Shown here piece after piece: positions 5,377 through 44,581 of a stretch of DNA of 57,370 nucleotides. Below the pieces are notes generated by a model that searched no databases, was not told where the DNA came from, and worked only from the letters and a program-made list of their open reading frames with translations. Source of the stretch: Ruminococcus sp. (lineage in GTDB: Bacteria > Bacillota > Clostridia > Oscillospirales > Acutalibacteraceae). Both the position numbers and the translations under genes were made by a program. The stretch spans positions 1 through 57,370 of the forward strand of contig JAFTHZ010000012.1 in assembly GCA_017457155.1 (NCBI GenBank). The letters are read 5' to 3'. How positions within the stretch are numbered: position 1 is the stretch's first letter; each line of letters opens with the position of its first letter.

Positions 5377-6168
5377 TCAGAAGGCCTCCCGCTTTATGGT
5401 TTCCAGAGCTCCCTTCTCAATTCGGCTGACCTGGGCCTGAGATATGCCGATCTCCTTCGCAACCTCCATCTGGGTCTTGCCCCGAAAGAACCGAAGCCCC
5501 AGAATCTTCTTCTCTCTGTCAGAGAGCTTTGCTATGGACTCCTTCAGAGCTATCTCCTCCAGCCAGTCCTTGTCGGTGCAGTTATCCCCCACCTGATCCA
5601 TAACATAGATGGTATCAGACCCGTCAGAGAACACAGGGTCATACAAGGACACAGGCTCCACTATGGCCTCCAGAGACAACACCACGCTCTCCTTCGGGAC
5701 ACCCATCTCCTTTGCAATCTCCTCTACCGTAGGCTCCGAACCCTTCTGATTCGTAAGCTTCTCTTTTATCTGCATAGCGTGGTACGCAATATCCCTCATG
5801 CTGCGACTGACTCTGATGGGGTTATTATCCCGCAGAAACCGCCTGACCTCACCGATTATCATGGGCACTCCATAGGTAGAGAACCTGACATCCAGCGTCG
5901 GGTCAAAGTTATCGATTGCCTTGATAAGTCCTATCACCCCCACCTGAAAAAGATCATCGGGATTCTCGCCCCTGTTGGAAAACCTCTGAATCACAGAAAG
6001 CACAAGCCGAAGATTACCCTGAACCATTTTGTCCCTGGCGACCTTGCGCTGTGCTTCGGTGCCGTTTCGGATAACCTCCAGCAGCTGTCGCTTCTCGCTC
6101 TCCTTCAGCACCTTGAGTCCTGCTGTGTTCACTCCGCAAATTTCAACCTTGCTGTACTGCAAAACCAT
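5377..6168 (-). CDS. sigG: Late forespore sigma factor SigG
   Basis: SigG directs RNA polymerase to forespore genes after engulfment. The 263-residue product matches the family closely: N-terminal SKVEICGV, region 2 (GNLRLVLSVIQRF, then DDLFQVG), region 3 (NNPIRVSRSMRDIAYHA) and region 4 with the helix-turn-helix (GKTQMEVAKEIGISQAQVSR). The open frame runs further upstream but would overlap the divergent lipoprotein gene and lacks family similarity there. I use the ATG at 6168; a TTG two codons later has better SD spacing and would give a start just before SKVEICG. In related genomes sigG lies downstream of ftsZ, often after spoIIGA-sigE. Here three lipoprotein genes intervene. Confidence 0.93.
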   Translation of the reverse strand: MVLQYSKVEICGVNTAGLKVLKESEKRQLLEVIRNGTEAQRKVARDKMVQGNLRLVLSVIQRFSNRGENPDDLFQVGVIGLIKAIDNFDPTLDVRFSTYGVPMIIGEVRRFLRDNNPIRVSRSMRDIAYHAMQIKEKLTNQKGSEPTVEEIAKEMGVPKESVVLSLEAIVEPVSLYDPVFSDGSDTIYVMDQVGDNCTDKDWLEEIALKESIAKLSDREKKILGLRFFRGKTQMEVAKEIGISQAQVSRIEKGALETIKREAF

Positions 6169-6243
6169 CTCTCCCGTCTTTTCTCTGAGAATAGTTTTGA
6201 CAACACACATCTGATTAATGCAAGAAAACAAAAGGAAAACATC

Positions 6244-6272
6244 TTGATAATCAAACACAGCAGATATATAAT
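6244..6272 (+). promoter_or_regulatory. Promoter of lipoprotein gene A
   Basis: TTGATA (6244-6249), a 17-base spacer ending in ATA, and TATAAT (6267-6272). The same layout, with the sequence ATATATAAT at the -10, recurs before lipoprotein genes B and C. Confidence 0.7.
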
Positions 6273-6307
6273 GTATGTATATTTCACCAAAATCGAGGAG
6301 GATCAGT

Positions 6308-8092
6308 ATGAAAAAGAAACTTTCACTGCTGCTTATTGCAGCTTTGCTCATCTGTACCACAGTTCTCACAGGCTGCCAATTTATGGACGTGTTGCTGGAC
6401 GCACAGGGCGAATCTTCTCAGTACAGCGCAAAGGTGGGAGACATCATCGACACAGACGACCCCGACTCTCTCAACAGGCTCATCTACGGAGACGGAGAGC
6501 TTCGGGTATATGATGACCCCATGGAAGAGCTTCAGGCTCTGGCCCGAGGAGAGGGCGTTGCCATCAACACCTTGTCAAAGCTTGCAAGCCTGAGCATTGT
6601 TGAGGTTGTGGAGGTTACTGATGATGGTGTTGTATACAGCATCACATCTCCCGATATGTCAGACTTCTTCAATGACCGTGAGGATGAGCTTGCACAGGCA
6701 GAGAACGCTGACGAAGTCACGGACATTATCAACGACTACGCCCAAAAACAGCTTGATAAAAATAAGAAAAAACAAGAGTTGGTGGTGGTCGGAAACATCA
6801 CTCCCTCAACTCCTGACGAAAGTTCTACCTCAGACGAGGTAAATATCGACTCTCCCTACAAGAACAAAGATTTTCTCAACGCTCTGCTGGGCGGACTTAT
6901 CACCGATTACGAGGAGAATGAAGAAACCCTCTCCCCCGAGTCCACCGCCACCATCAACAACGGAAGCGCAGTAGTCAGAACATCTGACTATATATTCTAC
7001 TTAATCGATGGAGACCTTATCAGAGAGGACTCACAGGACAACCGCGAGACAATCGCTTCCATCGAGAATGTCCAGAACAACATCTACATTCTCAACGATA
7101 CAATTTACGTCTCCTACAACGACACTGCACTTGGCACCATCTCCACCATGAGCTTTGACTTTGACGGAAATCTTCTGGAGGAAAACCAGGACACCGTTGT
7201 GATTGGCATTGCTGAGGAGAAAGGTGTGCTCATCACAGGTGAGGTAGCCAGAAACAGCTGTGCCGACCCTACCCGCTGCGAAATCTACAACCCCGTTACC
7301 TCAACCGGGACAGAGATAACCTCTCTTGAGGGAAGCAAGAACTTCCTGCATGCAGATACACAGTATGCGTACTTTGCATGTATGGACAACACCGATTACT
7401 CTACTCAGATAATCTGCAGAACAGACCTGGATCTGGGCACCACAGAGGAGATCTCCCGCCTGACCGTAGAAACCGAAATGACAGAATTCCTGCTCATTGA
7501 GCATTCACAGCTGACCGATAAAGCTCTCTATGTATCATACGGCTTCCGCGGAGGCTCAGGCAACTTCTTCCAGAGAGGTGCTATTGCCAGAATCGACAAG
7601 GAAGACTGCTCCACAACCATCCTCACCAATCTTGGCTGGACAGACGGCTCCACCCCCTACTTCAACGTTTTCCTGAAGGACTCTGTGGAACATATACTCT
7701 ACAAAGACAGCGAGTCAACCGCAGTTCTCCTTAACTGTGAGACACTGGAGTCAGAGACCTCCGCTATGAACGTAGGCCCCAACAACAAGCCCTTTGTTGT
7801 ATCCACCTACTCCGACGACTACAGCATCGAAACCGCAAAGTGCCTCTTCTATCCCCTCATGACAGGTGAATGTGTGCAGTTACTCCCCGATATGACACTG
7901 ACCTCCCTGGAGGATATCAACAAGGTGTACTACACAGGCGACAAGGTATTCTACACCATCCTATACATAAGAGAGGACCCCGAGGCACTGGCCTGGTGGG
8001 AACAGTTTGTTGATTATAAAGAAGAATACTACTCCTACGACACAGAAAGCGGCACAACTACCCTTCTGGGTACAGTTAATCTGGAGCAATAA
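6308..8092 (+). CDS. Secreted lipoprotein A of a three-gene tandem family
   Basis: The 594-residue product has a lipoprotein signal peptide (MKKKLSLLLIAALL) with lipobox LTGC, so Cys is about residue 22. The N-terminal module (about 35-190) is related to that of genes B and C: a DDP-x-EEL motif, GEGVAINTL, SPDMSDFF and NALLGGL. The C-terminal part (about 215-590) is repetitive beta-strand sequence like a beta-propeller (DUF5050-like in feel) and shares SGNFFQ, TPYFNVF, LYKDSESTAV and MNVGPNNKPF with B. I chose the ATG at 6308 because AGGAGGA precedes it by 6 bases. Function unknown; it is the most diverged member of the family. Confidence 0.85.
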   Translation: MKKKLSLLLIAALLICTTVLTGCQFMDVLLDAQGESSQYSAKVGDIIDTDDPDSLNRLIYGDGELRVYDDPMEELQALARGEGVAINTLSKLASLSIVEVVEVTDDGVVYSITSPDMSDFFNDREDELAQAENADEVTDIINDYAQKQLDKNKKKQELVVVGNITPSTPDESSTSDEVNIDSPYKNKDFLNALLGGLITDYEENEETLSPESTATINNGSAVVRTSDYIFYLIDGDLIREDSQDNRETIASIENVQNNIYILNDTIYVSYNDTALGTISTMSFDFDGNLLEENQDTVVIGIAEEKGVLITGEVARNSCADPTRCEIYNPVTSTGTEITSLEGSKNFLHADTQYAYFACMDNTDYSTQIICRTDLDLGTTEEISRLTVETEMTEFLLIEHSQLTDKALYVSYGFRGGSGNFFQRGAIARIDKEDCSTTILTNLGWTDGSTPYFNVFLKDSVEHILYKDSESTAVLLNCETLESETSAMNVGPNNKPFVVSTYSDDYSIETAKCLFYPLMTGECVQLLPDMTLTSLEDINKVYYTGDKVFYTILYIREDPEALAWWEQFVDYKEEYYSYDTESGTTTLLGTVNLEQ

Positions 8093-8096
8093 TTCA

Positions 8097-8129
8097 AAAC
8101 AGCATCGCACTACCGCGGTGCTGTTTTTG
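8097..8129 (+). terminator. Terminator of lipoprotein gene A
   Basis: ACAGCATCGC (8099-8108) pairs with GCGGTGCTGT (8115-8124), including one G-U pair, followed by TTTTG. It separates gene A from gene B, whose own promoter follows within 20 bases. Confidence 0.8.
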
Positions 8130-8140
8130 TTATTTTCTTC

Positions 8141-8169
8141 TTGTCAACCTTCACAATGCAATATATAAT
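8141..8169 (+). promoter_or_regulatory. Promoter of lipoprotein gene B
   Basis: TTGTCA (8141-8146), 17-base spacer, TATAAT (8164-8169), within ATATATAATATA as before genes A and C. Confidence 0.75.
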
Positions 8170-8202: not shown

Positions 8203-9954
8203 ATGAAAAGATTTTTTGCGGTTGTGCTTGCTGCTGTGATTTGCCTGACAGCTTTCTCAGGTTGTATCATTAAGGTATCAAGCAACATCGAAGAAAACGC
8301 TATGGAAGCAATCAACATCCTGTCTTCAGGGGATGCGCAGGATATCAACGAGCTGCTCTTCGGCGACAAGGATATGGAGCTTGCAGATGATCCCCTGGCA
8401 GAGCTTCTGACCCTCTCCACAGGCGAGGGCGTGGGTGTGAATGTGCTCACAGAGCTGATCGCCATGAGTACAGTAGAGGTACTCTCCGTAGAGGACGACA
8501 CCATCAAGTACGAGATCACCGCCCCTGATATGTCGGACTTCTTTGAGGAGGAATACACACAGCTTGACTCCACCGACAACGAGGCTGTCACCGACGCAAT
8601 CTATGACTACGCAGACAACGCAGATGAGGCCACAACGAAGGTTGAGCTCGACTACGAGACCGACGATGACGAGGTTATCATCGACTACAACAAAGAGTTC
8701 AACAACGCTCTGGTGGGTGGACTTGTTGACGGATACGAGGACCACATCGGCATTGACAACAATGACGGCGATACCACAACAGATACCCCCGACACCCCTG
8801 CAGAAGAAACAAAAAGCATCATCGGCAACGGCGGCAGCGCCATCAGTGCAGGCGGCTACACCTACTACATTGTGAGCGAGACCGACACAACCTTTGTCCG
8901 CGAGGATAAAGACGGCAACCTCACAGATATCTACTACACCGATTTGCCCACAAACAGAATTTTTGTGCTGAACGATACCATGTACATAACCGACTACAGC
9001 AGCGAATGCATAGTCTGCTTTGACTTTGAGGGCAACCAGACAGGAACCATCGACGGACTTTCTGTTGAGGGTGTGTGCGAGGATACGGGTGTCCTTCTTA
9101 CAAGCCCCATTGAAGACAGAGACTATTTTGCCGCAGCAGTATTCTATTCATTCTATAATCCCGAGACAGGCGCCACAACAGATATCAGCGGTACACCGGA
9201 TTTCGCTACTATGGTAGGCACAGACGCTGAAACCGTATACTTCTCATATAGCACAGACGGAATTATAAACCTGTATCAGGTAGATGCAGCGACTGGCTCT
9301 GCAGTCATCATTTCTGATGTTTCCTGGACTGAAGATATGGGAGACGCTTCCATCGAGTGGATGCAAGTGACCGACAAGTCTGTGTACTTCTCCTATGGAG
9401 GACGTGCAGGGTCCGGCAACTTCTTCCAGGGCGGCGAGATAGCCCGATATGACAAGAGCTCCACTACAACAGAAATTATCGCTGAACTTGACTGGACAAC
9501 CGGAGACACTCCCTACTTCAACGTCTTCGAGAAAAACGGAGTAGAACACCTGCTCTACAAGGACAGCGAGTCTACCGCCGTCATCGTCAACTGTGAGACC
9601 ATGGAGACAGAACCCTCCTCCATGAACGTCGGCCCCAACAACAAGCCCTTCGCAGTTACAGAGCACGCCTCTGACTACAGCTCCAAGACCACATCCTACT
9701 ATATCTATCCAGATATGACAGGAGACTGTGTTCAGCTTATCCCTGAGACAACTCTCGATGATATGGAAAACATCAGCTATGTAAACTACACAGGAAACAA
9801 GGTATTCTATCAGATAAGATATTCAAAGGACAACCCCGACTCCGTTGCCTGGTGGAACGACACCGTGGAGTACCAGATTGAGTACTATGTGCACGATTTA
9901 CAGTCAGGTGTCACAACAAAACTCCCCTACACCGCAACCCCCAGAGAAAGATAA
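8203..9954 (+). CDS. Secreted lipoprotein B of the tandem family
   Basis: The 583-residue product has signal peptide MKRFFAVVLAAVICLTAF and lipobox FSGC (Cys 21). The N-terminal module (about 42-180) is nearly identical to that of gene C in both protein and DNA. The C-terminal part (about 205-575) is homologous to gene A: a run of beta strands with conserved SGNFFQGGEI, TPYFNVF, LYKDSESTAV and MNVGPNNKPF, probably a beta-propeller on the cell surface. AGGAGG lies 9 bases before the ATG. The linker between the modules is rich in Asp and Thr. No enzymatic motif seen; a ligand-binding or envelope role is inferred only from location and fold. Confidence 0.87.
   Translation: MKRFFAVVLAAVICLTAFSGCIIKVSSNIEENAMEAINILSSGDAQDINELLFGDKDMELADDPLAELLTLSTGEGVGVNVLTELIAMSTVEVLSVEDDTIKYEITAPDMSDFFEEEYTQLDSTDNEAVTDAIYDYADNADEATTKVELDYETDDDEVIIDYNKEFNNALVGGLVDGYEDHIGIDNNDGDTTTDTPDTPAEETKSIIGNGGSAISAGGYTYYIVSETDTTFVREDKDGNLTDIYYTDLPTNRIFVLNDTMYITDYSSECIVCFDFEGNQTGTIDGLSVEGVCEDTGVLLTSPIEDRDYFAAAVFYSFYNPETGATTDISGTPDFATMVGTDAETVYFSYSTDGIINLYQVDAATGSAVIISDVSWTEDMGDASIEWMQVTDKSVYFSYGGRAGSGNFFQGGEIARYDKSSTTTEIIAELDWTTGDTPYFNVFEKNGVEHLLYKDSESTAVIVNCETMETEPSSMNVGPNNKPFAVTEHASDYSSKTTSYYIYPDMTGDCVQLIPETTLDDMENISYVNYTGNKVFYQIRYSKDNPDSVAWWNDTVEYQIEYYVHDLQSGVTTKLPYTATPRER
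8325..8743 (+). repeat. Duplicated N-terminal module, copy 1
   Basis: This 419-base stretch of gene B aligns without gaps to 10189-10607 in gene C, with about 17 mismatches counted by eye (about 96% identity). The flanks diverge sharply on both sides. Mismatches are mostly at third codon positions. It indicates a recent duplication or gene conversion. Confidence 0.9.
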
Positions 9955-9958
9955 AAAA

Positions 9959-9990
9959 CGGCACCGCTCAAAAGGCGGTGCTGGTTTTTT
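9959..9990 (+). terminator. Terminator of lipoprotein gene B
   Basis: GCACCGC (9961-9967) pairs with GCGGTGC (9975-9981), then TGG and six T residues. Confidence 0.85.
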
Positions 9991-9999
9991 ATATTAAAC

Positions 10000-10028
10000 T
10001 TGTCTTTGAACTCATATCAATATATAAT
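10000..10028 (+). promoter_or_regulatory. Promoter of lipoprotein gene C
   Basis: TTGTCT (10000-10005), 17-base spacer, TATAAT (10023-10028), again within ATATATAATATA. Confidence 0.7.
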
Positions 10029-10066
10029 ATATTACATAACAAAGCACCATAAGGAGGATATACTGA

Positions 10067-11725
10067 ATGAAACGTTACTTTGCAGCTTTGCTGGCTATAC
10101 TACTATGCCTCACAGCTCTTACAGGCTGCCTCAGACGCATAAGCGTAAACCCTGAGGAGGACGCTCTGAAGGCAATCGGGATTCTCGCTTCAGGGGATGC
10201 GCAGGATATCAACGAGCTGCTCTTCGGCGACAAGGATATGGAGCTTGCAGATGATCCCCTGGCAGAGCTTCTGACCCTCTCCACAGGCGAAGGTGTGGGT
10301 GTGAATGTGCTCACAGAGCTGATCGCTATGAGTACAGTAGAGGTACTCTCCGTAGAGGACGACACCATCAAGTACGAGATAACCTCCCCCGATATGTCAG
10401 GCTTCTTTGAGGAGGAGTACACACAGCTTGACTCCACCGACAACGAGGCCGTCACCGACGCAATCTATGACTACGCAGACAACGCAGACGAGGTCACAAC
10501 AAAGGTTGAGCTCGGCTACGAGACCGACGATGACGAGGTAGTCATCGACTACAACAAAGAGTTCAACAACGCTCTGGTGGGTGGACTTGTTGACGGGTAC
10601 GAGGACCTGAGCAGTGACTCTACTGAAGAGACAGACACGAAAGCATACACCTTCGATGAGGTTGTCGGTGATGCCTACAGCTACACCTGGGAATTTGATT
10701 CTGTACAACATGAATACTACATTCCCGAGATTCTTCTCACAACCGGTAATATTCCCTCCATCAATCAGGAGATATGGGATACCTTCTACCCCGAGGTAGA
10801 ATCTGTTGAGGACTCTGTAAACAACAATACATCCTACGGCACCACCGCAATGACCTACACAGGCCACGTTTTTGAGGATACTCTGCACCTGAATATCTGC
10901 GTCAACTCCTTTTATCATAACAACATTTACAACATATACAACGTAGATCTGACCACAGGCGAGCAAATCTCCGACGAGGAGCTCATAGCCTCCAAGGGAC
11001 TCACTATGGAGGAATACGACCAAAAACTCCGTCTGGCAATTGAATCCAACCACTGGGATACATACCACGACAGTTACGGCTCAGGTGACGATTTCTTCAC
11101 AGATGAGCTTATGGACGAGCTGCTGGACTGGTCACTCTCTGAAGAATATCTCAACGAGGCACAGCCCTACATCGGAGAGGAAGGTCATCTGTGGGTATAC
11201 GCAAAGATTGCGACACCAGCAGGTGCAGGCTTTGTATACACACAGCTCAGGCTGGAGGACACAGAAATCTCTGACTATTTCGGCAACAACACCACCTACG
11301 ATTACTCAGGCCACACCTACACAATGTATCAGAGCAGTATGACCTGGACACAAGCAAAATCATTCTGTGAGAAGCAGGGAGGCCATCTGGTCACCATTAA
11401 CTCACAGCAGGAACAGGACTTTATCACCGACACTATCCTTGCAGATGCCCAGAGAAACTGCTACTGGACCGCAGGATACCTTACTGATGGCCAGTGGGAA
11501 TGGACTACAGGCGAGGATATGAGCTACACCAATTGGGCAGAGAACGAACCCAACAACCAGGACGGCGTGGAGGCGTATATCCACCTCTTCGGCTTTGAAA
11601 AAACCGATGGCAGCGGTCCAAAACCCGTAGGCTCCTGGAACGATGTGGCCAACGAGGGCTCACCCTTTGCAGACGATTTCTATGACATCACAAATTATGG
11701 CTTCATCTGCGAGTGGGACAGCTAA
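10067..11725 (+). CDS. Secreted lipoprotein C ending in a C-type-lectin-like domain
   Basis: The 552-residue product has signal peptide MKRYFAALLAILLCLTAL and lipobox LTGC (Cys 21). Residues about 42-180 copy the N-terminal module of gene B. The middle (about 195-400) looks like a DUF3298-type domain (VDLTTGEQISDEELI, then a long helix and VYAKIATPAGAGF). Residues about 411-552 form a C-type-lectin-like fold: WTQAKSFCEKQGGHLVTI, then WAENEPNN (an EPN-type sugar/calcium loop) and a final FICEW with the last disulfide Cys. AAGGAGG precedes the ATG. So this paralogue has exchanged the beta-propeller part for a middle domain plus lectin. Binding of a glycan is plausible but unproven. Confidence 0.87.
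   Translation: MKRYFAALLAILLCLTALTGCLRRISVNPEEDALKAIGILASGDAQDINELLFGDKDMELADDPLAELLTLSTGEGVGVNVLTELIAMSTVEVLSVEDDTIKYEITSPDMSGFFEEEYTQLDSTDNEAVTDAIYDYADNADEVTTKVELGYETDDDEVVIDYNKEFNNALVGGLVDGYEDLSSDSTEETDTKAYTFDEVVGDAYSYTWEFDSVQHEYYIPEILLTTGNIPSINQEIWDTFYPEVESVEDSVNNNTSYGTTAMTYTGHVFEDTLHLNICVNSFYHNNIYNIYNVDLTTGEQISDEELIASKGLTMEEYDQKLRLAIESNHWDTYHDSYGSGDDFFTDELMDELLDWSLSEEYLNEAQPYIGEEGHLWVYAKIATPAGAGFVYTQLRLEDTEISDYFGNNTTYDYSGHTYTMYQSSMTWTQAKSFCEKQGGHLVTINSQQEQDFITDTILADAQRNCYWTAGYLTDGQWEWTTGEDMSYTNWAENEPNNQDGVEAYIHLFGFEKTDGSGPKPVGSWNDVANEGSPFADDFYDITNYGFICEWDS
10189..10607 (+). repeat. Duplicated N-terminal module, copy 2
   Basis: This is the gene C counterpart of 8325-8743, gap-free and in frame. 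Identity stops abruptly at codon GAC of YED, after which genes B and C share nothing recognisable. Confidence 0.9.
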
Positions 11726-11850: not shown

Positions 11851-12924
11851 TTACTTATTGAAGATAGACATGATGTCATAGAAGTTGTCATCATCGTCAT
11901 CAGTTGTCTCAGCCTTGGGAGCCTCTTCCTCAACCTTCTTGGCAGCAGTAGCTCTTACCTTGCCGTCTGTGGGGAAACCTGTAGCGATAACTGTAACGCT
12001 GATCTCGTCCTTCATTTCCTCGTCAACAACAGCACCCCAGATGATGTTTGCATCATCAGAAGCCTTCTCGGAGATCATTGTGGAAGCGATGTCAATATCT
12101 TCAAGGCTGACATCGGGAGATGCTGTGATATTGATGATAACACCCTGTGCGCCATCGATGGTTGTCTCCAGCAGGGGGCTGGAAATAGCAGCGTCAGCAG
12201 CCATCATAGCCTTGTCCTTGCCTGAAGCTCTGCCGATGCCCATGTGAGCATAGCCTGCATCCTTCATGATAGCAGTAACGTCAGCAAAGTCAAGGTTAAC
12301 AAGACCGGGAACAACGATAAGGTCAGAGATGCTCTGTACACCCTGACGGAGAATATCGTCAGCAATAGTGAAAGCGTTCTGGAGAGTGATGCTCTGCTCA
12401 GAAACGAACTTGAGTCTTTCGTTGGGAACAACAATGAGAGAGTCAACGCAAGCAGCCAGCTGCTCGATACCCTGCTCAGCCTGAAGCATACGCTTCTTGC
12501 CCTCAAATGCGAAGGGCTTGGTAACAACTGCAACGGTGAGGATACCCATATCCTTTGCAATCTTTGCAACAACGGGAGCTGCACCTGTACCTGTGCCGCC
12601 GCCCATACCTGCGGTAACAAATACCATGTCGGTATCCTTCAGCAGAGCAGAGATCTCCTCTCTGTTCTCCTCTGCAGCCTTCTGGCCAACCTCAGGCAGA
12701 GAGCCTGCGCCCTTGCCGCGGGTAACCTTCTCACCGATCTGGATCTTCTGGGAAGCCTTGGAGAAGCGGAGTACGTGCTCATCTGTATTGACAGCGATGA
12801 ACTCTACGTTCTTAACCTCCATTTTTACCATGCGGTTAACTGCGTTTCCGCCGCCGCCGCCGACACCGATAACCTTAATTACAGGCAAATAATCAACATA
12901 CTCTTTCTCTAACTCAAAAGCCAT
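11851..12924 (-). CDS. ftsZ: Cell division protein FtsZ
   Basis: FtsZ is the tubulin-like GTPase that forms the division ring. The 357-residue length is usual for Firmicutes. It has [11 protein letters not shown] at 22-32, the tubulin signature GGGTGTG at 108-114, and the C-terminal peptide YDIMSIFNK after an acidic linker; this tail recruits ZapA/SepF-type partners. AGGAGG lies 8 bases before the ATG. It is the last gene of the dcw cluster and has its own terminator. A 254-base AT-rich gap separates it from ftsQ, so it probably has its own promoter there; I could see a TATAGT box in that gap but no convincing -35. ftsA is not adjacent. Confidence 0.98.
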
Positions 12925-13178: not shown

Positions 13179-14819
13179 TCAGTAGTATACCGTGTCATCC
13201 GAGCCTGAGTCGGAGTCCCACTGAGAGTCATCTGAGCCATAAGAATCATCAGATCCGCCATCGTCAGCGTAGCTGTCGTCATAGTACCCATCATCAGCGT
13301 AGCTGTCGTCATAGTAGCCGTCATCATAGTAGCTGTCATCAGAGTAACTATCGTCATAATAACTGTCGTCTGTATAAACATCATCATAATCGGATGAGTC
13401 GTCCCCGTACCAGTCATCTGTATAGTAATCATCCACCGCACTCTCAGGAGCCGTGGTCTCGGGCTCTGTCTCGGGCGGTGCCTCGTTCTCGGCAAGGATG
13501 GTGTACTGCTTGAAGTATGACTTCTTGCTGTCATAGCACATAGAAACATCCAGATCTCCTGCGATGTTGGTGCTTTCGCTCACATCTAGCTTCTCAGTGA
13601 TTATCACGTGGGCGGTCTGGACCTTGTAGTTTATATGTTCGGGAAGTCCCAGATACACTACTATTCTGTTGTCATATACATATCGAAGCTCGATCTTTCC
13701 GTCGTCTGTGTTCATCACCTCAATAGATGTGACATTCTTGACAGAGTACTCCTTGAAAGCCGCAAACATCTCTTCAAGCGCTGTACCGATAACATCCGAC
13801 CCGAAGCTCACATACTCGCCGGGGGTCTTTGCCTGGGCATCAAGTCCCTCAATAACAGGAACACCCAGCTCATCTGTAGTAGAGGTAACCTCCAGCACCT
13901 TGCCCTTGTTGCTGACAACACAATACAGCCCGTCCGCCTCAAACACACAGGCAGGGTTTGCAGGAGTCACATCAATATTGATTCCGTCGGGGAAAACACA
14001 GTACACATCCACCGACTCCATATAGGGAAAAGCCTTGAGGATATTCTCCTCTGCCTTGCTCTTGGGAGCCAAAAAGATATTGTCTCCCTTCTTCAGACCG
14101 CTGGCCTGGATTATCTCCTGAGCAGAATAGGTGCCATGGCCGCTGACGGTGATGGTCTGGGTCTTGAAGAGTACTGTCAAAGACAGTATCACTCCCACAA
14201 TCACAACCACCGCGCCAATGGCAAAATACCTGAGGAAATTCCGCAGATCAATTCTGTGCTTTTGGGGTGTGGGAACCTCTCTGAGGGTCACATCGTCCTC
14301 CCTGACGGGAGGCATCCGCCGTGTGCTCTGGCTGACAGAAGGCTTCTCGGATGATACTCCCCCTACACCGTTGCGATGTCTGGCATATACCTTGGGAGCA
14401 GCTACGGTATCCGCAGGCTTTCTGCGTGTGGGGGCTGTGCCCTGATGTTTATCAGAAGCGGCCCGAGGAGAGGCAGAGGTCTTCTTCCCTCCGTTTCGGG
14501 CGGCTTTTTTGCTATCATTCTGTACACCAAATACCCTTGTGTCTCCCAGATTCTCTTTCTTTGGGGCGGGTTTTCGGTTATCGGAGGCAGACTTCTTCCC
14601 CTTCTGACCTGAGCTGATTCTGGTCATATCCTCCTGAGAGAAACGTCGGGTCTCATCAGAAACAGATTTCCCACGGGTCTTAGGCTCCGTTTTATCTGAG
14701 CTGCGCTGAAGCTGACTTTTGGTCTGCATGGTTTTGTTGCGCTGATTCTGAGCATCCCTGTCCCGACGCTTACTGTCGTATTTCTTCAGGGAAGGAATCT
14801 CAGCTGTCTTATCTTCCAT
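13179..14819 (-). CDS. ftsQ: Division protein FtsQ/DivIB with acidic Tyr/Asp-rich tail
   Basis: FtsQ/DivIB links the early division ring to the septal peptidoglycan machinery. The 546-residue product, about twice the usual size, has three parts. A basic, disordered cytoplasmic region spans about residues 1-195. A membrane helix (about 197-218) is followed by the POTRA and beta domains (ITVSGHGTYSAQEIIQASGL; MESVDVYCVFPDGINIDV). A final stretch of about 85 residues is made almost only of Asp, Tyr, Ser and Gly (DDSYYDD repeats) and should lie outside the membrane. I use the ATG at 14819, 5 bases after AAGGAGGTG; an upstream in-frame ATG overlaps that SD. It sits between murA and ftsZ, the usual place. 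Confidence 0.88.
   Translation of the reverse strand: MEDKTAEIPSLKKYDSKRRDRDAQNQRNKTMQTKSQLQRSSDKTEPKTRGKSVSDETRRFSQEDMTRISSGQKGKKSASDNRKPAPKKENLGDTRVFGVQNDSKKAARNGGKKTSASPRAASDKHQGTAPTRRKPADTVAAPKVYARHRNGVGGVSSEKPSVSQSTRRMPPVREDDVTLREVPTPQKHRIDLRNFLRYFAIGAVVVIVGVILSLTVLFKTQTITVSGHGTYSAQEIIQASGLKKGDNIFLAPKSKAEENILKAFPYMESVDVYCVFPDGINIDVTPANPACVFEADGLYCVVSNKGKVLEVTSTTDELGVPVIEGLDAQAKTPGEYVSFGSDVIGTALEEMFAAFKEYSVKNVTSIEVMNTDDGKIELRYVYDNRIVVYLGLPEHINYKVQTAHVIITEKLDVSESTNIAGDLDVSMCYDSKKSYFKQYTILAENEAPPETEPETTAPESAVDDYYTDDWYGDDSSDYDDVYTDDSYYDDSYSDDSYYDDGYYDDSYADDGYYDDSYADDGGSDDSYGSDDSQWDSDSGSDDTVYY
13257..13395 (-). repeat. Imperfect tandem repeat encoding the FtsQ acidic tail
   Basis: A 12- to 24-base unit (coding strand TACGATGACAGCTA-like) is repeated about ten times with third-position drift, encoding DDSYYDD, DDGYYDD and DDSYADD units. 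Such repeats can expand or contract by slippage, so tail length may vary between strains. Confidence 0.75.
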
Positions 14820-14892
14820 GGGAGCACCTCCTTTTTTCATTAGTCCTATCTTATATGTTAATCCAAAGTAATCTATATGTCAAACGATAATC

Positions 14893-40405: not shown

Positions 40406-41302
40406 TCAGAATGCAACATATATTGTCATGCTGTGAGATGCTGTGTCTCCTGTGACCACATCCTTGACAGTAACATCAATGATATACTCTTCCTTTTCGC
40501 TGTCATAGGACAGCGTTCCAATACTGCAGACATTGTCCTGTGAGAAATCCCTGATAAGCTCTCCGTCCATATAGAATGCGTACTCATACTCTCCTGAGCC
40601 ATATGCCGCATAGGCTGTCACCTCAAAGTCATCGGCTCCGACCCAGATATAGTCAGAACGCTGATTGTGACAAAGGGCGCTTACGGTCAGGGTATCCCTG
40701 TCCGCATTCTCCAAAACAGTATAACTTCCGCCTTCGCTGAAGAGATTGTTGAACCTCTCGCTTACTCCCAGCACATTTGTAATCTCCACGTCAATTTTGT
40801 AGTCTCCGGGGGAATCAAAGGTATACTCCAGCTTGTTGTCAGAAATATCGTCCTGTGCCACAGCTACATCGTTGATGTAGAAGGTATAGGTGAAGGGACC
40901 GTATCCGTTGTCAGCTTCTGTGATAAACACCACAGGGGTGCCGACTACTGCCCTGCCCGACTCAAAGGTTGAGTTAGCATATTCGTAATCAAAGTCCCAG
41001 TAAATCCACTCTTCCACAGGTGATAAGACAATTCCTGCAACTATCTTCTGTATCATGGTTGCATCCTTGACGGTGATTCTTTTGTCACCGTCCACCTCGC
41101 AGGCATATATCTGCCAGTCATGAAGGGACTCAAGCTCAGAAAGATGCTTCTGGGTGAGGGTTGCGTCCTTGACGGTAATTTTATCGTCCATATCCACATC
41201 TCCCGCACGGACAGGTGCGATGGATGCAGACACTCCGAAAGACGACAAACACAGGGACAACACCAAGGTAAACATCAAAACAAGGGCACCGATTTTCTTC
41301 AT
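40406..41302 (-). CDS. Secreted protein with N-terminal dockerin-like module
   Basis: The 298-residue product has a signal peptide (MKKIGALVLMFTLVLSLCL) and then, directly after it, a two-repeat dockerin-type module (about residues 33-92): GDVDMDDKITVKDATLTQK and, with Glu in the first calcium position, EVDGDKRITVKDATMIQK. The rest (about 95-298) is beta-rich: two Ig/PKD-like domains with patterns GPFTYTFYINDVAV and GSGEYEYAFYMDGE. No enzyme motif seen. Dockerins bind cohesins on scaffoldins; no cohesin is in the window. AAGGAGG precedes the ATG by 9 bases; the leader holds a striking palindrome. Confidence 0.85.
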   Translation of the reverse strand: MKKIGALVLMFTLVLSLCLSSFGVSASIAPVRAGDVDMDDKITVKDATLTQKHLSELESLHDWQIYACEVDGDKRITVKDATMIQKIVAGIVLSPVEEWIYWDFDYEYANSTFESGRAVVGTPVVFITEADNGYGPFTYTFYINDVAVAQDDISDNKLEYTFDSPGDYKIDVEITNVLGVSERFNNLFSEGGSYTVLENADRDTLTVSALCHNQRSDYIWVGADDFEVTAYAAYGSGEYEYAFYMDGELIRDFSQDNVCSIGTLSYDSEKEEYIIDVTVKDVVTGDTASHSMTIYVAF

Positions 41303-42505: not shown

Positions 42506-44581
42506 GTGAAGATTCATCGTAAACTCACAGCAGCAATTCTCGCAATATTAGTTCTTATTTCCACGATTTTCTGTGCATCTGCCGCCCAGAAAGAGATCGC
42601 CCTCTTGTCTGCAAAGACAGGTCTGATCCCTCTGGGAAGTGACGCAGGATTTTCGGCGACTCTCCCTGTCACCTACGCAGACCTGCCCTCCAGCTTCAGC
42701 TCTGCCGCAGAAGGACACGTCCTCCCTGTCAGACAGCAGAACGCCAACACCTGCTGGGCATTCGGCACACTGTCATCCTTTGAGACTCTTCTGCTTTGCA
42801 ACGGCGAAGAGAACATAAAGGCCTTTGCACCTCAGCACGCAAACTTCTGGGGTTCAAAGAGAGCTGACGGCACAGGCTGGCAAAGAGACATAAACAACGG
42901 CGGATACTCATACATCCCCCTGGGATATCTCACAAGCTGGTACGGACCTGTCAACGAGGAGGACTTCCCCGAGTCTACAAAATCCAAGGATGTTTACAAC
43001 GACTCCCTGAAGACCCTCACTCCCCAATATGGTCTGACCGCCGCAGTGTTCTTCAACAGCGATTCTCCCCGCGACTCCATCAAGTCTCTCATCTATAACT
43101 ACGGCTCCGTTGTGGGCAACTTCAACGCAGACACACAGTATATGACTGACTACACCAACTTCTACTGTGGCGACCACACCATAGCCACCAACCAGCTTCA
43201 GGGACATTGTGTCAGCATAGTAGGCTGGGACGACAACTATCCCAAAGAGAACTTCACAGCCAAGGGCACCCCTGAGAACGACGGCGCATGGCTCATCAAG
43301 AACAGCTGGAGCAGATACATCAACGATATCGGCGGATACTTCTGGATCTCCTACGAGGACGCCTGGATCTTTGACAGTATCTTCGGACCCAGCTACGCTC
43401 TCACAGACTATACTGAGATCAACGACCAGACCAAGCTGTATCAGAACGAGCAGGACGGCGCAACCTATGAATTCAGCTACCTGACCGGGCAGAGTTCCAA
43501 CCCTTACGCTGAGATCACATATATGAATGTGTTTGACTTCACCGAGGAGGACCGCACCCTTGACAAGGTTGTGTTTGAGTCCACCTCCTACGGAGCAGAC
43601 TACACCGTATACTACATCCCTCTGGACGGAGACAAACCCTCAGGCAACAAGGAAGACTGGACCGAGCTTTACTGTGACATTATTGACCACACAGGATACA
43701 TCTGTGCAGACTTTGAGGATATTATCCTCCCTGCAGGCAAGGGTGCCATCGGCATCTGCATCGATAACGAGATCACCTATAAATTGAATCACAAAAAAGA
43801 GGGCTACACCTACATACCCAACTCCATCGGCGTTTCCGAGTGGCTCAACTCAGGCTCAAGAATGCTCTTTGTCCCCGAGGCTGACTACGGAATGTGCTAC
43901 TTCATGGACACAAGTTGGGACTCCAAGGTGAAGGACGTAATGTCGTTCTACAAACAGTATCTGGACGACGAGGTCGGCGGAACCTTTGTTATCAAAGCAA
44001 TCACCCAGAACGAAGTCCCTGATGATATTCCCACATCAGCTACCTCTACATCTGCTGTGACAACTGCCACCCTGCCCTCAGAGACTACAACTGACAAACC
44101 TGCCCCCGTAACCTCGGCACCTGTTGTGACAGATCCCACAACCGCTCCTATCCCAACAGAGACCACCACATCTCCGTTGGTAACCGAGCCTTCATCATCC
44201 ATCACAACAGACCCCACCGAGACTACAGCCCCCACAACCTCAATCCCCGTTACCTCTATTCCCGTAACATCCATACCCGTATTCACATCCGCTCCTGCTT
44301 CATCAGCCACATCTCCCTCAACCTCCACAACCAACCCTGATGTGGTACAGATGTACTATATTGGAGATGCGGACCTTAACAATAAGATCAACGTCAAGGA
44401 CGCAACCCTGATTCAGAAGCATGCAGCTGAGATCACCCGAATGGAAGGTCTCCAGCTTGTCTCTGCGGATATCAACGGCAAAGGCGGAGTCAATGTACAG
44501 GACGCAACGCTGATTCAGAAATTCATAGCAGGAATTAGCAACCAATACAAGATAGGCGATCCTGTGTACATCTTCTCATAA
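42506..44581 (+). CDS. Secreted papain-like (C1A) cysteine protease with lectin-like domain and C-terminal dockerin
   Basis: The 691-residue product has a signal peptide (KLTAAILAILVLISTIFC). The C1A domain (about 58-310) shows VRQQNANTCWAFG with catalytic Cys 83 and oxyanion Gln just before it, His 234 in GHCVSIVGWDD and Asn 266 in WLIKNSW. A beta domain of the lectin-like type that often follows such proteases covers about 320-510. Then comes a Thr/Ser/Pro linker (about 515-615) with repeats of TSIPV, and a dockerin (about 620-685): ADLNNKINVKDATLIQK and a second loop DINGKGGVNVQDATLIQK in which Lys replaces a calcium ligand. The GTG start 8 bases after AAAGGAG is preferred over an ATG inside the leader. 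Confidence 0.9.
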   Translation: MKIHRKLTAAILAILVLISTIFCASAAQKEIALLSAKTGLIPLGSDAGFSATLPVTYADLPSSFSSAAEGHVLPVRQQNANTCWAFGTLSSFETLLLCNGEENIKAFAPQHANFWGSKRADGTGWQRDINNGGYSYIPLGYLTSWYGPVNEEDFPESTKSKDVYNDSLKTLTPQYGLTAAVFFNSDSPRDSIKSLIYNYGSVVGNFNADTQYMTDYTNFYCGDHTIATNQLQGHCVSIVGWDDNYPKENFTAKGTPENDGAWLIKNSWSRYINDIGGYFWISYEDAWIFDSIFGPSYALTDYTEINDQTKLYQNEQDGATYEFSYLTGQSSNPYAEITYMNVFDFTEEDRTLDKVVFESTSYGADYTVYYIPLDGDKPSGNKEDWTELYCDIIDHTGYICADFEDIILPAGKGAIGICIDNEITYKLNHKKEGYTYIPNSIGVSEWLNSGSRMLFVPEADYGMCYFMDTSWDSKVKDVMSFYKQYLDDEVGGTFVIKAITQNEVPDDIPTSATSTSAVTTATLPSETTTDKPAPVTSAPVVTDPTTAPIPTETTTSPLVTEPSSSITTDPTETTAPTTSIPVTSIPVTSIPVFTSAPASSATSPSTSTTNPDVVQMYYIGDADLNNKINVKDATLIQKHAAEITRMEGLQLVSADINGKGGVNVQDATLIQKFIAGISNQYKIGDPVYIFS

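Follow-up and report, generated by a model that had tools for sequence, protein, structure and literature searches.

A probable partial gene conversion tract in the N-terminal module of neighbouring lipoprotein genes from Ruminococcus sp.

Partial gene conversion is a known, ordinary evolutionary process, and a close counterpart of the locus described here is the PE_PGRS17/PE_PGRS18 pair, also neighbouring duplicated genes, between which a cluster of differences has moved (PMC1762029). A second point of reference is provided by diversity-generating retroelements with C-type-lectin-fold targets, in which, as in one of our genes, a lectin fold forms the C-terminus and the N-terminal domain preceding it is of another kind (PMC8144416).

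The locus comprises three genes (A, B, and C) arranged in tandem on the + strand within the window, that is, the whole stretch of 57,370 nucleotides of Ruminococcus sp. DNA that was analysed (contig JAFTHZ010000012.1, assembly GCA_017457155.1). All three are open reading frames with lipoprotein-type signals at the protein start. Gene A (6308..8092, lipobox LTGC) and gene B (8203..9954, FSGC) encode an N-terminal module followed by a beta-propeller-like part, and gene C (10067..11725, LTGC) the N-terminal module, a middle domain and a C-type lectin domain; the start of A at 6308 was picked by reading, the open reading frame list having a longer start at 6275. A sporulation sigma factor (5377-6369, - strand) flanks the array on the A side and ftsZ (11851-12924, - strand) on the C side, both named by reading the sequence rather than by family search. 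The reading frame adjoining ftsZ (13179-14840, - strand) reads as DivIB/FtsQ-like and ends in a long repetitive Asp/Tyr/Ser-rich tail.

Sigma-70-like sites with a 17-base spacer end 33-38 bases 5' of the three starts (6244..6272, TTGATA-17-TATAAT, for A; 8141..8169, TTGTCA-17-TATAAT, for B; 10000..10028, TTGTCT-17-TATAAT, for C; all + strand) and terminator-like hairpins lie 3' of A (8096..8127, +) and B (9959..9983, +), to be read against a scan background of 13 promoter-like and 12 terminator-like hits in total versus shuffle means of 6.4 and 4.6. Since each gene has its own promoter-like site and hairpins follow A and B, the three look like separate transcription units. Their upstream regions can be aligned and have the same promoter layout, as expected of tandem duplicates.

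A first-pass annotation of this DNA had pointed to a 419-base block nearly identical in B and C, with about 17 differences estimated by eye, and counting gives exactly 17. Codons 1-180 of genes B and C can be aligned with no gap, and along this alignment their divergence is mosaic: the block (8325..8743 in B, 10189..10607 in C, both + strand) is 95.9% identical (17/419 bases differ), whereas the left flank (8203..8324 in B, +), which encodes the signal peptide and mature N-terminus, has 49 differences in 122 bases. Under a model with a single changepoint, the left edge falls at 8324 (2-lnL range 8324-8328), and none of 2000 permutations gave as high a likelihood ratio. Flank and block differ at all sites (49/122 vs 17/418, Fisher p = 4e-22) and likewise in rounded synonymous counts (20/30 vs 12/92, p = 5e-8). 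The first 103 bases of the block contain no differences, and a second changepoint is marginal (reached by 80 of the 2000 permutations). Past 8743, the DNA of B and C can no longer be aligned (the best blastn piece spans 18 bases, E 0.52); the left edge falls within coding sequence that aligns, and the right edge is where homology ends. The annotation was therefore correct that the C-terminal parts are unrelated, but the signal-peptide regions, which it had also taken to be different, look homologous though diverged.

The same annotation had asked for synonymous divergence along the genes, and a flat level was not seen. In the block (codons 42-180) dS between B and C is 0.143 and dN 0.016, while in the flank (codons 1-41), which has only about 30 synonymous sites, dS is about 1.58; the A-B comparison gives a dS of about 1.63 in this block and of about 2 in the propeller part. 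Among codons for identical amino acids, B and C use the same codon at 119 of 131 positions in codons 42-180 (54.5 expected if saturated) and at 10 of 21 in codons 1-41 (7.9 expected). Constraint, instead of recombination, was rejected as the source of the similarity because the step also occurs at synonymous sites and the same block is near saturation between A and B. From the dS of the flank and of the A-B comparison, the three genes look like long-diverged paralogues, with a B-C block far younger than the flank beside it; the term 'recent' used previously holds in that relative sense and is otherwise an overstatement, block dS being about 0.14. The block changes comprise 12 synonymous and five nonsynonymous differences (dN/dS about 0.11), which suggests purifying selection since conversion.

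A sharp change of divergence within alignable sequence, synonymous sites included, is what is expected of partial gene conversion, and the recombination or gene conversion proposed initially is upheld by the step at 8324, the permutations and the synonymous signal. The explanation we consider likely is partial gene conversion between the old tandem paralogues B and C followed by purifying selection. In this sequence of events, A, B, and C would have arisen as tandem paralogues encoding membrane-anchored lipoproteins with a common N-terminal module and a C-terminal head; C would have acquired another head (middle domain plus C-type lectin) by fusion; and later homologous recombination would have carried a module segment of at least 419 bases from one of B and C to the other, in a tract whose left end falls within coding sequence that can still be aligned and whose right end coincides with the loss of homology. 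The case rests on one genome of the species, the only one in which this gene family has been seen so far.

Alternatively, C could be a younger duplicate of B (dS about 0.14) whose 5' end (promoter and signal peptide) was later replaced from another paralogue and whose 3' end was replaced from a lectin gene. The similarity of the block, taken alone, fits this scenario, as does a right edge that joins unrelated sequence, and a duplication after which both ends were replaced would leave the same divergence pattern as conversion. It is nevertheless rather unlikely, as it needs two replacements where conversion needs one event, and no further module copy that could have served as a source is present in the 89%-complete assembly: its three module copies at E up to 1 all lie within the window. 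A single conversion event is the simplest account of the B-C block. An assembly artefact (strain mixture or collapsed repeat) was also considered, given that the genome is in 40 contigs, is incomplete and looks like a metagenome bin; it appears very improbable, since simple copying of reads would not be expected to produce 17 scattered differences, 12 of them synonymous, in intact frames.

With respect to the encoded proteins, the C-terminal part of A and B is propeller-like as judged from structure prediction. The part of B common to A, which B had been said to keep, shares 44% amino acid identity with it; in the AlphaFold model of B residues ~213-475 mostly have pLDDT 70-90 (whole-model mean 56.4), and Foldseek matches this model to solved propellers such as BamB and designed ones (best E 5.3e-9; target TM-scores of ~0.5 for the top matches). 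The N-terminal module is modelled with low confidence in B and may have a stalk role. The proteins of the window give no Pfam match to DUF5105 (PF17118). Two distant relatives of the module (L070 and L071), comparable to DUF5105-like small lipoproteins, share with it the motifs ITxxDM and N..F.NA..G, and one of them (L070) has a weak DUF5105 match below the Pfam cut-off (23.4 vs 30), in contrast to the window proteins, which have none. The module appears to bear a distant resemblance to the DUF5105-type domain that a small lipoprotein carries in another family of the order.

Gene C had been described as a DUF3298-like middle plus a C-type-lectin fold, and only the second half of this description stands. 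The lectin domain (Lectin_C, PF00059; residues 424-499) matches Pfam with E 3.7e-14 (53.8 bits vs a cut-off of 22.6), and compared with solved C-type lectins it is closest to the secretory phospholipase A2 receptor (E 4e-33), mannose receptors also being related. EPN and WND motifs mark calcium-dependent mannose-type sites; both are present in this domain, and the head of C may have a glycan-binding role. The middle part matches no Pfam family at E up to 10, DUF3298 included, which leaves that label unsupported by profile; a profile built from four relatives has no match among solved chains better than E 0.8. The middle part aligns at 22-25% identity with genus lipoproteins that stand alone (L088, L089, and L093). 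The model of C has a low mean pLDDT (37.6). In a search for defence functions, PADLOC gave one weak match in C (Effector 2TM, E 0.0028, residues 217-310) and NCBIfam none.

Sequences similar to the head of C (a 370-residue query) occur in 60 of 161 genus genomes at E up to 1e-6, its own included, and among the matches listed outside its own gene none covers more than 226 of the 370 residues. In the six matches that were read, the two domains occur apart, the lectin in L083, L086, and L087 and the middle domain in L088, L089, and L093; C therefore looks like a domain fusion, and its head was probably gained in this way. The three lectin proteins, which were the ones scanned, carry dockerins, and two of them (L083 and L087) show additional CHAP and NlpC matches under Pfam cut-offs. 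Gene C thus places a C-type lectin behind a lipoprotein signal, as opposed to the dockerin-bearing arrangement of these three proteins. Elsewhere in the same genome (contig C15), another protein (L004, 445-1602) matches the C lectin twice and then, by reading, has a dockerin.

The distribution of the other parts is narrow. The N-terminal module and the A/B propeller profile are each found in one of 161 genus genomes, their own, and beyond it no other C-termini attached to the module were found at E up to 1e-5 in this set. Among 300 family genomes, B matches two besides its own, weakly and in the propeller part only (E 8e-7 and 8.9e-4). A module profile has matches at E up to 0.05 in 11 other genomes of 394 from the order; of the five of these that were read, the two short proteins mentioned above (L070 and L071) look real, unlike the remaining three. 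A looser genus profile that includes the signal peptide matches 125 of 161 genomes, most among the matches listed covering only about the first 60 positions; the longest outside the window among them (L021, positions 1-159 of 181) appears from its sequence to be a substrate-binding lipoprotein, and L017, a further candidate relative of the module, reads as unrelated. One signal-peptide match (genome G030, contig C14, E 3.5e-6) is L083, the protein with lectin domain and dockerin. Two places in the genome of the window itself (C5:27401-27598 and C39:2915-3112, each with a 339-residue frame) resemble the signal-peptide part of the profile almost equally well (E 1.7e-4 and 1.5e-4) and are possibly another duplicated lipoprotein.

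A mobile origin was rejected on the grounds that tblastn of B found no match in plasmids and phages, and that viral contigs contained no relative by the module profile and no match to a 53-base exact pattern from the block. In genome_contigs the module of B gave 293 pattern matches, none confirmed as a relative. The ftsZ neighbourhoods of 20 relatives, several of them ending at contig ends, contained no A, B, or C by tblastn (E up to 0.01). Two of the 20 stretches contain both ftsZ and a clear sigma factor copy, separated by two other genes (L040) or by none (L044); a third (L039) has only a weak 40-residue match. In the seven of 20 that were read (L036-L041 and L044) the genes 3' of ftsZ differ: examples, named by reading, are an ABC transporter and a 1173-residue protein of secreted type, and ftsZ may also be followed by the sigma factor with no gene between.

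The claim that the locus keeps an inner module unchanged and exchanges the exposed part is too strong: since homology runs out at the right edge, the C-termini may simply have differed already before conversion. The wider proposal, a diversifying display system in which exposed heads are swapped repeatedly on a constant anchor, would draw on the two kinds of head borne by one module in one locus, on the lectin domain of C and on the domains like those of its head in other genus proteins. Against it stand a single head change among three genes, the detection of the module in one of 161 genus genomes, the lack of an RVT_1 match in the genome, a promoter-like site before each gene, block changes that look purifying, and a locus free of direct or inverted repeats of at least 60 bases beyond the paralogues themselves, so that we regard it as highly unlikely. 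The window has two direct-repeat families of at least 60 bases, the B-C block and the A-B propeller stretch. An inverted repeat pair (41135-41203 and 44363-44431; 69 bases, 77% complementary) lies elsewhere in the window with its arms 3159 bases apart. A diversity-generating retroelement is unsupported as well, as the genome, 89% complete, has no RVT_1 reverse transcriptase match at E up to 0.001 (the control matched in three of 14 genomes).

Codon usage also bears on whether further exchanges took place in the array. Shared codons are in excess for A-B and A-C at codons 101-180 (z 3.66 for both) and for A-B at codons 397-496 (z 3.36). Under a gene-specific null, the observed maximum near codons 131-198 was reached in 67 of 1000 simulations for A-B and 23 of 1000 for A-C, and the A-B propeller stretch peaks near z 2.2 among the windows listed. 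In coordinates of B, sharing with A above saturation is located at 8503-8742 and 9391-9690, marginally so under the stricter null, and these segments are possibly older A-B conversion tracts. A slowly recombining lipoprotein cassette array, in which the module would act as a homology patch for exchanging or acquiring heads and would bear conversion tracts of several ages (the B-C tract being the youngest, and candidates for older ones lying around codons 101-180 for A-B and A-C and around 397-496 for A-B), is a speculative and improbable extension of the conversion reading. Were different heads to be found on this module in other strains, the locus would become a model for slow cassette exchange.

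Set beside the described systems, the locus differs from the retroelements (PMC8144416) in that no reverse transcriptase was found, the repeat lies in the N-terminal module and not in the lectin, and 12 of the 17 changes are synonymous. It differs from PE_PGRS17/18 (PMC1762029) in that conversion there is backed by many strains and here comes from one genome, in other families and with unrelated tails. What partial gene conversion between B and C would represent alongside these cases is a clear and measurable homogenisation of one domain between neighbouring multidomain lipoproteins whose heads stay different.
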